From a virus, in the IMG/VR virus record IMGVR_UViG_3300035698_011262, positions 1 through 29,135 of that record: DNA of 29,135 nt; one strand, 5' to 3'. The notes below the pieces were generated by a model that ran no database searches, was not told where the DNA came from, and was given only the letters and a program-made list of their open reading frames with translations. Position 1 is the first letter of the stretch, and every line of letters begins with the position of its first letter. Made by a program: the position numbers and the translations under genes. Positions 18,105 through 25,130 of the stretch are shown here, piece by piece.

Positions 18105-18297
18105 AAAATACAAACTAAATAAAGAAGATGGATTGAAAATAGTTAAAGGAGCAGGAATTGCAGTTGCTTCAGCATTACTTGTTTATGGTGCAGAAGTAAT
18201 ACCAAATGTTGATTTTGGTTCTTATACAGCAATAGTAGTAGCTCTTGCAGGAATTTTAATTAATTCAGGAAGAAAATATATGGCTAATAAGAAATAA
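18097..18297 (+). CDS. Holin candidate, two membrane helices
   Basis: A 66-residue protein with a short charged N-terminus (MSEKYKLNKEDGLKIVKG), two hydrophobic helices (AGIAVASALLVYGAEVI, about 19-35, and YTAIVVALAGILI, about 43-55) and a basic tail (RKYMANKK). This is the size and layout of a small class II holin. The ATG at 18097 is chosen because GAGGTGAAA lies directly upstream. It is the last gene of the rightward operon and overlaps the peptidase gene, which supports a lysis role. Archaeal holins are poorly characterised, so this is inference. Confidence 0.65.
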   Translation: MSEKYKLNKEDGLKIVKGAGIAVASALLVYGAEVIPNVDFGSYTAIVVALAGILINSGRKYMANKK

Positions 18298-18300
18298 AGC

Positions 18301-18360
18301 TTTTTTCTAAGTGGAGTTTTCATCCCCAAGTTTAGGCAGCCAACTCTCGGCTGTCCTTTT
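18301..18360 (+). terminator. Terminator region closing the rightward operon
   Basis: A T6 run (18301-18306) directly follows the holin gene. A more GC-rich hairpin follows: AGGCAGCC (18334-18341) pairs with GGCTG-T-CCT (18349-18357) with one bulged T, then a T-rich tail. The site separates the convergent endonuclease gene from the tail operon. Confidence 0.6.
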
Positions 18361-18937
18361 ATTCTTTTAAATAATTTTTAGCTTTTTTCTTATTGTGTAG
18401 AACTATATGACAATAATGGCACATACTTATTAAATTTTTTTTGCTGTTGTTATTTTTATTTTCATCTATATGGTGTACATCAAGCTTTGGTTTAATCTGG
18501 TATTTTTTGCATAATTTGCATTTGTTATTATCTCTACTCCTGATTTCTTCTTTTAAATATCTGTTAAATTCATGACTGTATTTCTCAAAAGATTTCCCAC
18601 CTTCCCACTTATGATTTTTATCTCCTAAAAGCTTTCCTTTATTTGATTGACCTATTTTTCTTTTTGTTTCTTTGGTGTGTTTCTTTCCTTTAAAAGGATT
18701 TATTATTTCTCCACTTTTAAACTTTCTTTTTAATGTTTCACTAACTTTTTTGCAATGCTCTTTTGTTTTTGTTTTTCCTTTTAAAGCTATACTAATTTTT
18801 AAACAAGTCTCTAGTGAATGTTTATTACCAATATGAGAAAGACTTTTCTTCTTATTTGTATCTTTATTGTTGCTATATCTTTTAATAATTTCGCTAGTTT
18901 CTTTAGTTAATCCTTTATTCCAAACTTTTCTTTTCAT
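18359..18937 (-). CDS. HNH homing endonuclease with NUMOD3 repeats
   Basis: A 192-residue basic protein. The N-terminal part has NUMOD3-type DNA-binding repeats: SHIGNKHSLETCLKISIALK (34-53) and KGKKHTKETKRKIGQSNKGK (83-102). The C-terminal HNH domain has CKLC (140-143), DVHHIDENKNN (153-163), CHYC (173-176) and a final His181. These are the expected zinc ligands and catalytic His-Asn residues. The ATG at 18937 is preferred: a TATA-like TTTATAAAT (18968-18960, minus) lies about 27 nt ahead, which would give a leaderless mRNA of its own. An in-frame ATG at 18961 would add eight residues. It is the final gene of the leftward operon, directly after the glycosyltransferase C-half, and probably a free-standing mobile gene. 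Confidence 0.85.
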   Translation of the reverse strand: MKRKVWNKGLTKETSEIIKRYSNNKDTNKKKSLSHIGNKHSLETCLKISIALKGKTKTKEHCKKVSETLKRKFKSGEIINPFKGKKHTKETKRKIGQSNKGKLLGDKNHKWEGGKSFEKYSHEFNRYLKEEIRSRDNNKCKLCKKYQIKPKLDVHHIDENKNNNSKKNLISMCHYCHIVLHNKKKAKNYLKE

Positions 18938-18969
18938 ATATAGCTGACAAGTTAAATGCATTTATAAAT

Positions 18970-19701
18970 CTATTGTTTTAATACTTCTAAAAGTTTTTTT
19001 GCACTATTAGACCAAGTATATTCTTCTGATTTCTTGTATGAATTTTCTCCTAACTTTTTCATTTCAGATTGATGTTCAAAAGCATATCTTAGTTTTTTTC
19101 TAATATCTTTTATGCTGGGTTTAAACCATTTGATTCCTTCATATTGAAGATCTCCTTTAACATCAATCATCTCTCCTTCTTCTATTATTAACCCATTACT
19201 CTTATTGACAAAATCCATATGCCCTCCAAATTTTGTAACAATTACTGGTAAACCACAAGCCATAGATTCTATGACTGGCAGATTAAATCCCTCTGCCATA
19301 GAAGTTGATACAAATACATCACCAGAATTATATAGTTTATTCACTTCTTCTAGGGTTGTTTGTTCTGTGTTGATTAGAATATCCGCATGACCTGTTCCTT
19401 GTTTTATTCCTAGAACTTTCATTGCTTCTGGTATGTCTAGATCAGGTGCATAAGCTGTGTTAATCTTTACCATTAACTTTACCTTCTCTTCTTTTCTAAA
19501 CTCTTCAGCAAAAGCTTGTAGTAAAAACTGCATTCCTCCTCTATCATTAGCAGTTCCTCTCCATCCTTTGTTAGCAACAAATGTAAACTTGTCATCTTTT
19601 TTATCAACTTTAATCTTCTTAAATATACTAGGATTAAATCCATGTGGAACTATTTTAATCTTTTCTTTTATTTTTTGTAATTGTTTTATTGTAAAATCCA
19701 T
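18970..19701 (-). CDS. Glycosyltransferase family 4, C-terminal (donor-binding) half of a split gene
   Basis: A 243-residue protein that equals only the second Rossmann domain of a GT-B, family 4 enzyme. It begins in the interdomain linker with IKIVPHGFNPSIF (16-28), then KFTFVANKGWRGTANDRGG, and holds the nucleotide-sugar motif AEGFNLPVIESMACGLPVI (136-154). The N-terminal acceptor domain is encoded separately at 20344-20754, with an endonuclease gene between. The ATG at 19701 has the ribosome site GGAGGA at 19710-19715, inside the last codons of that endonuclease gene. The split falls at the domain boundary, so both halves could fold and pair. Whether the two-chain enzyme is active is not known. 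Confidence 0.85.
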   Translation of the reverse strand: MDFTIKQLQKIKEKIKIVPHGFNPSIFKKIKVDKKDDKFTFVANKGWRGTANDRGGMQFLLQAFAEEFRKEEKVKLMVKINTAYAPDLDIPEAMKVLGIKQGTGHADILINTEQTTLEEVNKLYNSGDVFVSTSMAEGFNLPVIESMACGLPVIVTKFGGHMDFVNKSNGLIIEEGEMIDVKGDLQYEGIKWFKPSIKDIRKKLRYAFEHQSEMKKLGENSYKKSEEYTWSNSAKKLLEVLKQ

Positions 19702-19702
19702 T

Positions 19703-20347
19703 TTAAAAATCCTCCAATCTTAAAAAAGAACAATTTAATTCTTTTTCAATCTGTTTTTGCCTAGTAATATCTCTAGTATTGTTTTTCTTTCTTTCATCTA
19801 CTTCAATTACTAAGTTTTTATCTGTTATATATCCATCAACCCAATAACCCAATATTGAAAATTGTCTGTATATTTTTTCTTCAAACTCCATTTCCAGAGC
19901 ATCTAATATGCTAGTTTCATTCCTTCCAATTGATGGTCCTCCTCCATTTAATAATATCTGATTTTGTCTAGCAACCCTTCTTAATTCTCTATTCCTAGGA
20001 ATTTTCATTAGTTCTGTTTGTTTAATACTATTTTTTATTTTGCTACTCTCTGTATTTTTTTTTCCAATACAGCTCTTTCTTAAATTTTCAATATGTAATT
20101 TAGAAAACTTTTTACCTTTTTTTAGTTTAGAAATTTTTTTATTTCTTTCTTTATTATTCCACACTTTATTTATCATAATCTTTCTCCATTTGTTTTTAAT
20201 TTTTTTGTCATGCATAGGATTATTATTTTTGAATCTCTTTCTAGAACTTTTAATAACATTTTCTGTAACATAAGAAGGATGATTTTTTTTATAACTTCCT
20301 CTGTCTTTGTCATAGCCTTTTATAAATTGTCCTTTTTTATTTCTCAT
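19703..20347 (-). CDS. Homing endonuclease, Vsr/EDxHD-like, inserted within a glycosyltransferase gene
   Basis: A 214-residue, very basic protein. The N-terminal 115 residues are Lys/Arg/Asn-rich DNA-binding modules (KKGQFIKGYDKDRGSYKKNH, NPMHDKKIKNKWRKIM). The C-terminal 75 residues resemble a Vsr-like PD-(D/E)xK (EDxHD) nuclease: GRNETSILDALE, GYWVDGYITDKNLVIEVDER and QKQIEKELNCSFLRLEDF, with candidate residues Glu144, Asp171, Glu182 and Asp184. Its ATG overlaps the stop of the N-half (ATGA) and its stop lies 1 nt before the ATG of the C-half. It therefore occupies exactly the gap in the glycosyltransferase. This layout fits a mobile gene insertion, not an intron. Confidence 0.75.
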   Translation of the reverse strand: MRNKKGQFIKGYDKDRGSYKKNHPSYVTENVIKSSRKRFKNNNPMHDKKIKNKWRKIMINKVWNNKERNKKISKLKKGKKFSKLHIENLRKSCIGKKNTESSKIKNSIKQTELMKIPRNRELRRVARQNQILLNGGGPSIGRNETSILDALEMEFEEKIYRQFSILGYWVDGYITDKNLVIEVDERKKNNTRDITRQKQIEKELNCSFLRLEDF

Positions 20348-20754
20348 TCTTTTTTTTCCTCAATCAATTTATCAACTGTATTTATTATTGCTTGTTTTAC
20401 ATGTTGACTAGGTACTAATATTTTATTTATATTATCTGTTACCATATGATTTATCCAAAAAGTCGGACATAAATCTCCTTCCCATACACAAAAACCATAA
20501 AACTTCTTAGGATTATCAGCAATAGCAAATTTCCAATAAGGTGGTGTGGTAATAGCAACTGAAGAACACTCTGTAGAAAAGGTCTTAGTCATCATATTTA
20601 ATTCACTATCGCTACATAATATCTCCCAATTATTTGGTTTAGGAGCATCTAGTCTTGTGTCTCTGTTTAATTCATATACGGCTTGGGATAACCCTTTAAC
20701 ATGAGAACTATAACCAGAGCTGTCAAATATTTGTCCTATTATATTAATTTTCAT
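20344..20754 (-). CDS. Glycosyltransferase family 4, N-terminal (acceptor) half of a split gene
   Basis: A 136-residue protein that looks like the first Rossmann domain of a GT-B enzyme. It has the glycine-rich beginning INIIGQIFDSSGYSSHVKGL (3-22), where SGYSSH is the acceptor-side loop, then YGFCVWEGDLCPTFWINHM and a terminal ILVPSQHVKQAIIN, the conserved end of the N-domain. It stops after a short charged tail (DKLIEEKKE), where an intact family member would continue to the P-H-G-x-N-P motif that is found at 19701-18970. The ATG has AAGGTGAT upstream and overlaps the methyltransferase stop (ATGA). Confidence 0.8.
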   Translation of the reverse strand: MKINIIGQIFDSSGYSSHVKGLSQAVYELNRDTRLDAPKPNNWEILCSDSELNMMTKTFSTECSSVAITTPPYWKFAIADNPKKFYGFCVWEGDLCPTFWINHMVTDNINKILVPSQHVKQAIINTVDKLIEEKKE

Positions 20755-21302
20755 CTTATCACCTTTATTTTCTTTGCATAAAAATTAGCACAGTGAGATT
20801 GTGTATGTCTTTCAATTATATCAAACCCTGCTTTCTTTATTAGATGTGCCCATCCTTTCTCTGTTAATACATAATTATGACATGTTGTTATAAATCCTGG
20901 ATCCATTGGAACTCCAATCAATAGTTCACCTCCCATCTTCAATACTCTATTCATCTCTAATAAGCATATCAGTGGACTTATTGTATGCTCTAATGCATGG
21001 CTGCTGAAAACAATATTAAAGTTTTCATCACCAAAAGGAAGTTCATGAGCATCACCAACATAAGTATTCTCTTTTTTATTTTGAATTAAATCAACTCCTG
21101 TCCACTTTGCTTTTACTATACTTGTTTGGTTTGAGCCACAGCCAACATCTAATAAAGATTTGTCAGCACTATCTATATTCATTCTGTGGAAAAAATCCCA
21201 AGCAATAGCTAGATGTCCAGTTCCATTTAAACTTCCCACTCCTGCATAACCATATTCTGCTGTTGCTATTTTAATATAATTCTGCCACTTTTCATCATTC
21301 AT
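20751..21302 (-). CDS. Class I SAM-dependent methyltransferase
   Basis: A 183-residue protein with the Rossmann methyltransferase motifs: LLDVGCGSN (50-58, SAM-binding motif I), GVDLIQ (motif II), GDAHELPFGDENFNIVFSSH (motif III and IV) and ALEH. It is of the Methyltransf_11 type, often acting on sugars or small molecules in glycan gene clusters. The ATG at 21302 is chosen because GGTGG lies upstream; the in-frame ATG at 21329 has none. It overlaps the 50-codon gene before it and the split glycosyltransferase after it (ATGA). It probably modifies a glycan made by the neighbouring transferases. Confidence 0.85.
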   Translation of the reverse strand: MNDEKWQNYIKIATAEYGYAGVGSLNGTGHLAIAWDFFHRMNIDSADKSLLDVGCGSNQTSIVKAKWTGVDLIQNKKENTYVGDAHELPFGDENFNIVFSSHALEHTISPLICLLEMNRVLKMGGELLIGVPMDPGFITTCHNYVLTEKGWAHLIKKAGFDIIERHTQSHCANFYAKKIKVIR

Positions 21303-21447
21303 TGTAATTACCACCAAGTCTAAATACATAATTATTTATGCAAGATGTTCCTGTTTTAGTTATTCTTTCTCTTACTATGAATTCTGCTAATTCTCTTGTA
21401 GATATAATCAAGTCATCTACACCTTCTACATCATAAATTATATGCAT
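21295..21447 (-). CDS. Small protein of 50 residues, unknown
   Basis: This short gene has a strong ribosome site GGAGGA just before its ATG, inside the end of the GT2 gene, and overlaps the methyltransferase start by 8 nt. The product begins MHIIYDVEGVDDLIISTREL and ends CINNYVFRLGGNYNE. It fills the only gap between two tightly packed genes, which supports it as real. No domain is recognised. Confidence 0.6.
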   Translation of the reverse strand: MHIIYDVEGVDDLIISTRELAEFIVRERITKTGTSCINNYVFRLGGNYNE

Positions 21448-22241
21448 TTTTTATTCCTCCAATTTTTCTTAACAAATTCTTCAAATGTCTTTTGATCTGT
21501 CTGTACTTTTTGTTGATACTCTTGGTCTCTAACTCCACCTAAAGGACATAATAAATGATAAGCTTTAGCAGAAGTATTAACTCCTATCTTGAAACCTGCA
21601 TTCTGAGCCTTTAAACTGAAAAAAGCTTCCTCTCTGAAACCGACAGTTGTTAGTGTTTTAGGATATTCTATTTTCTCAATTACACTTTTCTTCATTAAAG
21701 CACAACTTCTGAATTCATTAGCAGGCAGGATCTCTTCTGATAGATAAGACATCCCACAATCGTCTGTATAATTAGTTAGCTTTCCATCTTTATCTGTTTC
21801 AACTCTATTCAAGAAAGGCTTAACAAAGCTTACTTCTCTTTCAAAGTCTGGATTTGCCATTGGTGGTGTAACTCCAGAAGCAATATCATAGCCTTCTTCT
21901 AGAACATGCACTAGCTTTTCTAAATAGTCTGGCTCAATAATAACATCATCATCAAGTCTGCATACTGCATCATTGTTGAATCTGTCGTTTTCTATTATAA
22001 AATTCCTAGCATTACATACTCCAAAGCTTTGATCTCTTCTTATGAATTGGAATCTATGGTCTTCTAATTTCAATCTATTGATTAAATAATTTAAAAAGTA
22101 AGCATTAGCAACTGGTGTGTCTGATGCATCATCTAATATTATCACATCAAATTTCTGATAGGTCTGTGTTCTTAGGCTCTGAAGCAATAAAGCTAATTCA
22201 GTGTGTCTGTTTTTTGTTGCTACATGTATTGTTATTCTCAT
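21438..22241 (-). CDS. Family 2 glycosyltransferase
   Basis: A 267-residue GT-A enzyme. Motifs are ITIHVATKNRHTELALLLQS at the start, FDVIILDDASD (31-41), FGVCNARN (73-80), CRLDDDVIIEPDYLEKL with the metal-binding DxD at 97-99, and an acceptor-side FREEAFFSL that would carry the catalytic base. It would transfer a sugar from a nucleotide donor onto a glycan, lipid or protein in the cytoplasm. The ATG has AGGTGAAA upstream and overlaps the preceding stop (ATGA). It is in the middle of the leftward operon of sugar enzymes. Confidence 0.88.
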   Translation of the reverse strand: MRITIHVATKNRHTELALLLQSLRTQTYQKFDVIILDDASDTPVANAYFLNYLINRLKLEDHRFQFIRRDQSFGVCNARNFIIENDRFNNDAVCRLDDDVIIEPDYLEKLVHVLEEGYDIASGVTPPMANPDFEREVSFVKPFLNRVETDKDGKLTNYTDDCGMSYLSEEILPANEFRSCALMKKSVIEKIEYPKTLTTVGFREEAFFSLKAQNAGFKIGVNTSAKAYHLLCPLGGVRDQEYQQKVQTDQKTFEEFVKKNWRNKKCI

Positions 22242-23534: not shown

Positions 23535-23720
23535 TTATGGCCATATCCTAAGCTTTACTAATAACTTTTTGCACCTTGAACACTTGTGTACTGCTTTTGT
23601 GTTATGGGGATTCTTTGATCTTGTTCTGAATGAAATCAATTTCATATCATGATTACAGTAAGAACATTTTTCAATGCCCTCCTTTAATCTTGAGTCATCT
23701 TCTGTAATAGTTTTTCCCAT
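23535..23720 (-). CDS. Small zinc-ribbon protein
   Basis: A 61-residue protein with two zinc knuckles, KCSYCNHDMKL and KCSRCKKLLV, 28 residues apart. The ATG at 23720 has GGTGATG upstream, within the 3' end of the preceding glycosyltransferase gene (37 nt overlap). A longer form from 23741 is possible. It is one of several small Cys-pair proteins in this operon. Function unknown. Confidence 0.65.
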   Translation of the reverse strand: MGKTITEDDSRLKEGIEKCSYCNHDMKLISFRTRSKNPHNTKAVHKCSRCKKLLVKLRIWP

Positions 23721-24931
23721 TTTGGCATCACCGCTTCCCATTCATAATATTTAACTGCTTTGGCTCTACCATTTCTGCTGTAGAGTTTTTGAAGTTTCTC
23801 ATCTGCATAAATTCTACTAAGCTTATCTGCACAATCGTGTATGTCCATCATACCACGTTCTACAGTCCAACTTCCTGTTATTGTCCCATTGCTTTTTAGT
23901 ATATCATATTTATGGCTATCAGTATCAAACATGTCAACTTCTTCTGTACCAACTATATTGACTCCTTCTCCTGCCTTGCCATCCTGTAATACTAATTCAG
24001 GTGTAGTTGTATAATCAGTTGCTACAACTGGTACTCCACAAGCCATAGCTTCAATAATAGGAACACCAAAGCCTTCTCCTGAAGTTGTTAGTAAAAATAC
24101 ATCCATTGCATTGTAAACATCTGGCATGTTATCTAAAGGAAAGCCATCATAGAAATTCATTCCTGTAAATATTACTCTGTTCTGAAGACTGTATCTGCTG
24201 ATTAAAGTTCTTAAGTCAAACACAGCTGCATTGTCAACAGGATCTGTATGCATGAATAATATTGCATCAGGTTTATCTTGACAGAATAAAGCGAAAGCCT
24301 TTATTGTTCTGTCTAACATCTTTCGTCCTTGATTACGTGCTACTGTTCCAACAACAAACTTGCCTTGCAATCCCCACTTCTTTTTAATCTCTTCTTTATT
24401 AGCTGGTTTGTACAAACTTGTATCACAAGCGTGTGGAATGTAATCTGATTTTATATTATAATAATCTTTAACTTGTTTCTGACCATGCTTTGACATTGCC
24501 ACAGTATGGTGAAATTTCCGAAGGATATTCTCACAAGTCTGTGGGAGTCCTCCTCCTCCATCGCTTGGATAGTACATCACAGTCTTTGCTGGTGCAAGAT
24601 CCTGCTGAAGAAATCCACTTTGCTGTAACATGAAAGTATCTAATAAAACTCCAAAAATATCTGGTCTCATTTTCTTAGTCAATGGTCCTAGAATATCTCT
24701 GCAGTATGGTTCTTTGCCACATCCTATTACATTGAATGGCATCTTTGGAAACCATCCATTTGGTAATGTTCTTGGTGGAAAAGATCCTATAAAATTATGT
24801 CCTAAATAATTGCAATCATATTTATCTTTTAGTCTATATATTATATTAGTAGAAATTGTTGCGAAGCCAGTCGGCAAAAAAGTACTATCTGACATCCATA
24901 ATATTTTCTTCTTAGTATTTACAGCGTCCAT
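23684..24931 (-). CDS. Family 4 glycosyltransferase, intact
   Basis: A 415-residue GT-B enzyme with both domains. It begins KKILWMSDSTFLPTGFATIS (8-27), has the linker motif SDYIPHACDTSLYKP (162-176), KFVVGTVARNQGRKMLDRTI, and the donor-site motif EGFGVPIIEAMACGVPVV (286-303). The equivalent linker in the split enzyme of the same operon is where the break occurs, so this gene is a direct comparison. The ATG at 24931 is preferred over 24940 because AAGGAGG is 9 nt from it. The 5' end overlaps the previous small gene by 20 nt. Confidence 0.9.
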   Translation of the reverse strand: MDAVNTKKKILWMSDSTFLPTGFATISTNIIYRLKDKYDCNYLGHNFIGSFPPRTLPNGWFPKMPFNVIGCGKEPYCRDILGPLTKKMRPDIFGVLLDTFMLQQSGFLQQDLAPAKTVMYYPSDGGGGLPQTCENILRKFHHTVAMSKHGQKQVKDYYNIKSDYIPHACDTSLYKPANKEEIKKKWGLQGKFVVGTVARNQGRKMLDRTIKAFALFCQDKPDAILFMHTDPVDNAAVFDLRTLISRYSLQNRVIFTGMNFYDGFPLDNMPDVYNAMDVFLLTTSGEGFGVPIIEAMACGVPVVATDYTTTPELVLQDGKAGEGVNIVGTEEVDMFDTDSHKYDILKSNGTITGSWTVERGMMDIHDCADKLSRIYADEKLQKLYSRNGRAKAVKYYEWEAVMPKWEKLLQKMTQD

Positions 24932-25130
24932 ATCTATCATCCTCCTTTTCTTTTACTTCTGTTCCTGATGGTCGTAGCATAATTACACTACCACTAACTA
25001 CTTCTTTGAAGGTAACATTTGCAAATTGGATAGCAACTTCACGTGAAACAGTTATTCCATATGAATCTCCTGTCTTATTACATGTAGTTGTTTTTCTTAT
25101 TTTATGGTATTTAGCTGGTCCTCTGTACAT
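24912..25130 (-). CDS. Small AbrB-like (swapped-hairpin) protein candidate
   Basis: A 72-residue protein. TGDSYGITVSREVAIQFANV and VVSGSVIMLRPSG resemble the two halves of the SpoVT-AbrB/MazE swapped-hairpin DNA-binding fold (usual pattern G-x-S-x-x-I-x-I-P, then a strand ending in I-x-L). The ATG at 25130 has AAAGGTGAT upstream. It is embedded in the leftward operon and could be its regulator. Similarity is by pattern only. Confidence 0.55.
   Translation of the reverse strand: MYRGPAKYHKIRKTTTCNKTGDSYGITVSREVAIQFANVTFKEVVSGSVIMLRPSGTEVKEKEDDRYGRCKY

Follow-up and report, generated by a model that had tools for sequence, protein, structure and literature searches.

We identified a GT4-type glycosyltransferase gene that quite probably exists as a gene in pieces, split into two open reading frames (ORFs) by the precise insertion of a nuclease gene and probably still encoding a working enzyme of two chains. 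The locus lies in the IMG/VR virus record IMGVR_UViG_3300035698_011262, whose 29,135 bases were analysed as a whole (the window) and include genes for capsid, tail tube, tape measure and baseplate-hub proteins. On the minus strand, the operon runs in the order methyltransferase, N-half, nuclease, C-half and NUMOD3-HNH endonuclease (Table 1). Judged by sequence, the N-half corresponds to the N-terminal domain and the C-half to the C-terminal domain of a single GT4-type glycosyltransferase. The two halves share a reading frame (1053 nt apart); the N-half and the nuclease ORF overlap by ATGA (20344-20347), and a single base (19702) lies between the nuclease stop codon and the ATG of the C-half. 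An earlier note on this DNA had given the coordinates of the two halves, described the nuclease gene between them as touching both, credited each half with a good ribosome site (that of the C-half inside nuclease codons) and placed an intact GT4 gene in the same operon; we confirmed all of these observations. Ribosome sites are present at all three starts, that of the N-half being AAGGTGAT, and a GGAGG at a distance like that of the C-half is found before just 1.1% of all ATGs in the whole window. We also found a stable hairpin (AAAAAGAAUUAAAUUGUUCUUUUUU) in the stretch 19700-19750 of the minus strand, in the 3' end of the nuclease gene and just upstream of the C-half ribosome site (z-score -2.65; 2 of 200 shuffles were equally good). 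This hairpin may possibly serve in regulation or as a weak terminator.

Table 1. Features of the split glycosyltransferase locus and its surroundings in the window
Feature	Position	Strand	Description
N-half, GT4-type glycosyltransferase	20344..20754	-	136 aa; complete Rossmann-like N-domain, ends in inter-domain linker
C-half	18970..19701	-	243 aa; remaining linker and nucleotide-sugar-binding domain with E-x7-E (EGFNLPVIE)
Vsr-like/EDxHD-type nuclease ORF	19703..20347	-	214 aa; basic N-terminal region, C-terminal nuclease domain
Minimal insertion	19702..20346	-	645 bp, exactly equal in length to the nuclease ORF; flanking halves in one continuous frame
Nuclease K188 codon	19784..19786	-	His in all 61 alignable relatives
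GGAGG ribosome site of C-half	19711..19715	-	within last nuclease codons
GAGG ribosome site of nuclease	20358..20361	-	within last N-half codons
NUMOD3 and HNH endonuclease gene	18359..18961	-	directly downstream of C-half; HNH residues present
Methyltransferase	20751-21329	-	between GT2 gene and N-half
GT2 glycosyltransferase	21438..22241	-	syntenic anchor; nearest conserved operon gene upstream of intact ortholog in 9/9 relatives
Intact paralogous GT4	23684..24940	-	418 aa; same operon as split gene

The two halves and their intact orthologs

The C-half matches the Pfam families Glycos_transf_1 (PF00534) and Glyco_trans_1_4 (PF13692), and by itself it covers positions 137-371 of the 374 positions of phrog_2170. 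Joined to the N-half, it gives a collinear and continuous match to positions 89-371 of 374, so that what is one chain in phrog_2170 and the GT4 glycosyltransferases is spread here over two. The N-half alone matches neither a Pfam family nor a phage protein. Nine intact orthologs from related viruses, described below, are matched by the N-half with E-values of 3e-19 to 6e-50 and by the C-half with E-values of 5e-50 to 1e-71. In addition, the N-half alone (E 4e-7) and the C-half alone (E 2e-14) match, in order, one intact 387-aa ORF in L010. The AlphaFold2 model of the N-half is a confident α/β domain (pLDDT 86.5) whose new C-terminus is borne on the final helix. Foldseek returned only weak Rossmann-like matches for this model, those to solved glycosyltransferases included, despite the strong sequence matches of the N-half to the orthologs. 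The two-domain GT-B arrangement with the E-x7-E motif is thus distributed over two chains, the N-domain being assigned by its collinearity with the orthologs.

A scan with the major capsid protein identified 80 related viral contigs (51-77% identical in this protein), and 50 of these records were searched for both halves. Both were matched in nine records, each time within one ORF of 361-396 aa and with 37-48% identity; a tenth record gave a distant glycosyltransferase match alone. The capsid proteins of the nine ortholog-bearing viruses are 55-76% identical to that of the window. In all nine, the intact ORF lies downstream of the ortholog of the GT2 gene of the window, and in six of the nine fetched stretches a baseplate-hub or neighbouring structural gene is convergent just beyond it, as in the window. 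An uninterrupted ORF was also found in each of the 80 fetched sequences from more distant viral relatives. The earlier note had described one glycosyltransferase split in two at its domain linker and had proposed, as a check, that the halves together should span a complete enzyme without losing a motif and that relatives should carry an unbroken allele. Both were found: the halves together make up the whole enzyme, and the gene is uninterrupted at the same place in all nine syntenic orthologs.

The joined halves amount to 379 aa and are 44.7% identical to the 378-aa ortholog of one of these viruses (L278, IMGVR_UViG_3300033141_004453). The alignment across the junction is free of gaps, with NTVDKLIEEKKE/MDFTIKQLQKIKEKIKIVPHG in the window against NTIKRYEKGKNELELTEKQLERIRDKIRIVPHG in the ortholog, and the inter-domain linker is 23 aa long in both. 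Linker length differs greatly from ortholog to ortholog, the measured ones having about 6-24 residues. Since the joined halves align without gaps to an ortholog of nearly equal length, the event was an insertion of precisely one ORF length, 645 bp, at a tolerant place in the linker, and nothing was lost. Distant relatives with short linkers had suggested that the head of the C-half might be extra, newly acquired sequence; this idea was dropped, because the L278 ortholog has the same 23-aa linker. No direct repeat was found when a target-site duplication flanking the insert was looked for.

The split allele was found in one contig. The relatives were reached through the capsid protein only: scans of viral contigs with the N-half, the C-half or the nuclease singly gave no matches, scans of GTDB with a glycosyltransferase motif and with the tail tube protein gave none either, and a strict EGFN motif scan retrieved distant glycosyltransferases only. 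The methyltransferase gene upstream of the N-half was not matched at that place in the nine relatives, so genes may be gained and lost at this end of the operon.

The capsid-related contigs (L171-L250) form a sizeable group of tailed, apparently uncultivated viruses with no close match to an isolated phage; the capsid protein of the window itself has a sole, weak match among isolated phages. Two checked members of the group encode PCNA and one encodes a family-B DNA polymerase. These genes indirectly support an archaeal host, in line with the earlier assignment of the DNA to an archaeal virus.

The nuclease between the halves

The protein encoded between the halves has a weak match to DUF559 and belongs to a large viral family, of which 134 relatives were matched in IMG/VR. 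Searches of PDB sequences with it yielded nothing useful. In Foldseek comparisons of its predicted structure with the PDB, the best named nuclease is I-Bth0305I (3r3p; probability 1.00, E 2e-3), and Vsr (1vsr) is matched with a probability of 0.95. Thus, the protein shares the nuclease-domain fold of Vsr and of the EDxHD homing endonucleases such as I-Bth0305I, but it is free-standing where I-Bth0305I is intron-borne. The EDxHD family is named for its conserved active-site residues (PMC3943268, PMC6083498). Every one of the 61 relatives alignable in this region shares the acidic core residues D171, E182 and D193 as well as R196. On the other hand, the His that is invariant in the alignable relatives has been replaced by Lys (K188), and the loop that holds it is shorter. 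We infer that the H of the EDxHD motif is this His, given how conserved it is and where it lies. The nuclease thus looks like a derived EDxHD relative and is probably inactive, as the family-invariant His has given way to Lys, although the loss of this residue alone is no proof. The earlier note had called the protein a basic EDxHD/Vsr-like nuclease, which stands as to homology and fold but not as to the conserved His. It had also named a homing endonuclease as the agent of the split: a relative of that family does lie inside the interrupted gene, but with the His missing an active enzyme should not be assumed.

The nuclease was absent from the 20 related viral records in which it was sought. 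With 25% GC, as against 30-36% for the operon, the nuclease and NUMOD3-HNH genes are the most AT-rich part, as expected of acquired DNA. The NUMOD3-HNH gene follows the C-half after 8 bp and has no clear ribosome site; it is absent at this locus in the related viruses, a few of which carry a similar gene elsewhere. It might be an active partner of the apparently dead Vsr-like nuclease. Other members of the nuclease family (in L092, L093, L115, L131, L137, L123, L147, L164 and L169) are lodged tightly between baseplate or tail genes, some with overlapping codons, and these are ordinary intergenic free-standing endonucleases.

Decay, splicing and the likely history of the locus

Of the 50 residues that all nine orthologs share, the halves retain 46; their sequences thus show no visible decay. 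Their mean identity to the orthologs (41.0%) falls within the range of the intact genes (36.4-44.1%), and their branch length is ordinary; the neighbouring GT2 gene gives a similar picture. The full conservation of both halves makes it most likely that the N- and C-chains assemble into a working two-chain enzyme. If the split were very recent, the halves would likewise be free of decay. The glycosyltransferase might then be a fresh pseudogene, killed by a real insertion too recent to have left a trace in the sequence, and the other glycosyltransferases of the operon could cover for its loss. We consider this rather unlikely. Besides the retained invariant residues and the lack of excess divergence, the C-half has its ATG at the exact junction, with a well-spaced GGAGG of the kind that so few ATGs in the window possess. 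Furthermore, the nuclease itself has already lost its His, and the insertion is therefore probably not brand new.

A nuclease gene within an intron (group I, group II or bulge-helix-bulge), with an unbroken glycosyltransferase made after splicing, is far less probable still. Both halves do share one frame and the insert length of 645 bp is divisible by three, which means that excising it exactly would restore the ORF. However, Rfam intron families gave no match up to E 5 in the region 18200-21400, and pairing between the two junctions (-7.5 kcal/mol) was no better than in shuffles (mean -7.9 kcal/mol). The nuclease ORF also takes up the entire insert, so that no ribozyme lies outside it, and each downstream ORF has its own ribosome site. 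We therefore rejected an intron of any of these types around the nuclease ORF. The earlier note had held that splicing out of the nuclease would speak against a split gene; neither the Rfam search nor the junction pairing lends support to such splicing.

That the two chains are joined by protein trans-splicing, as in fractured genes of the split-intein type, can practically be dismissed: split-intein halves do flank relatives of the nuclease in terL-like and IMPDH-like genes, but the tail of the N-half and the head of the C-half together match the 23-aa ancestral linker seen in the ortholog, which accounts for every junction residue and leaves no intein sequence on either half. As the insert is no longer than the nuclease ORF, there is no room for an intron or an intein. 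In 2009, Dassa and colleagues reportedly described genes fractured with split inteins together with a new family of endonucleases (cited in PMC10448857). In those genes a nuclease of the same broad family lies between the gene halves, whereas the halves in the window carry no split intein and would remain separate chains. We found six nuclease relatives in genes fractured by split inteins (terL-like in L122, L124, L140 and L168, IMPDH-like in L099, and one in L153), each locus being established by both flanks matching one intact protein. All six other fractured genes found in the nuclease family carry split inteins, and that of the window does not.

The reading that we prefer, a gene in pieces made by a precise insertion, suggests the following history. 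The ancestral gene would have encoded a GT4-type glycosyltransferase of about 379 aa in a tailed, probably archaeal virus. A 645-bp gene for a free-standing Vsr-like (EDxHD-type) homing endonuclease would have inserted precisely into the hypervariable linker between the two Rossmann-like domains, a point defined by the nine syntenic intact orthologs. The insertion would have supplied the stop codon of the N-half through the ATGA overlap, and the C-half would have been left to start from an ATG at the junction, preceded by a ribosome site inside nuclease codons. From these signals, which are seen in the sequence, we infer that both halves are translated and that a single polycistronic message serves for all three proteins, whose translation is probably coupled. 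Each chain makes up a full domain, and the two would then most likely assemble into a working enzyme. The nuclease has lost its invariant His and, probably, its activity. It could nevertheless persist, because the gene would be restored only if the nuclease were removed exactly and because the start signal for translating the C-half now lies within it. Carried further, this would make the nuclease a fixed dead spacer that no longer cuts and whose 3' end holds the C-half start signal, and the glycosyltransferase an obligately two-chain enzyme; we give this extension an even chance. If it holds, the locus is a fracture by a Vsr-like nuclease that needs no split intein.

Comparison with known split genes

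That free-standing endonucleases can split genes without any splicing is established, although the known cases are rare and concern other genes. In phage Aeh1, nrdA is split by mobE into a ribonucleotide reductase gene in pieces, and the two-chain enzyme is fully active; gene 60 of T4 is split by mobA, a free-standing endonuclease, without splicing; and gene 43 of Aeromonas phage 25 is possibly another such split, whose two chains co-purify and are active (PMC2988022). The earlier note had cited Aeh1 nrdA with its assembling halves as the known precedent; this is correct for nrdA, but several other phage genes belong beside it (PMC2988022). Our literature search found no gene split by a homing endonuclease gene in an archaeal virus or in a glycosyltransferase, which is weak evidence of absence as most subscription papers lay outside the search. 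Several features of the locus appear to be new: a nuclease of the Vsr-like family fracturing a gene without a split intein, an ORF-exact insertion in a domain linker that can be set against nine intact syntenic alleles, a probably dead nuclease, and the gene and host concerned, a glycosyltransferase in a probable archaeal virus.

The locus adds a clean, checkable case to the short list of genes split by homing endonuclease genes without splicing. The nine intact orthologs place the uninterrupted site almost to the base, which makes target choice, linker tolerance and two-chain assembly directly testable. If the extended reading is true, this is a natural case in an archaeal virus in which a selfish gene has converted an enzyme of one chain into one of two subunits. 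The locus also bears on the origin of multi-subunit enzymes, since a selfish gene could settle here at a domain boundary and cause no loss. The absence of the His suggests that such an element can outlive its own activity. For annotation, it is a warning that a short orphan ORF beside a lone glycosyltransferase C-domain can be part of one enzyme.

Like Aeh1 nrdA with mobE, T4 gene 60 with mobA and gene 43 of phage 25, the locus combines a free-standing endonuclease gene with two ORFs in an operon and has neither intron nor intein. For Aeh1 nrdA the active two-chain enzyme is established; for the glycosyltransferase of the window it is the probable product. Those cases involve HNH or GIY-YIG nucleases, bacterial phages and replication enzymes; the window, in contrast, has a Vsr-like nuclease without its His and a glycosyltransferase of a probable archaeal virus, divided ORF-exactly in its domain linker.
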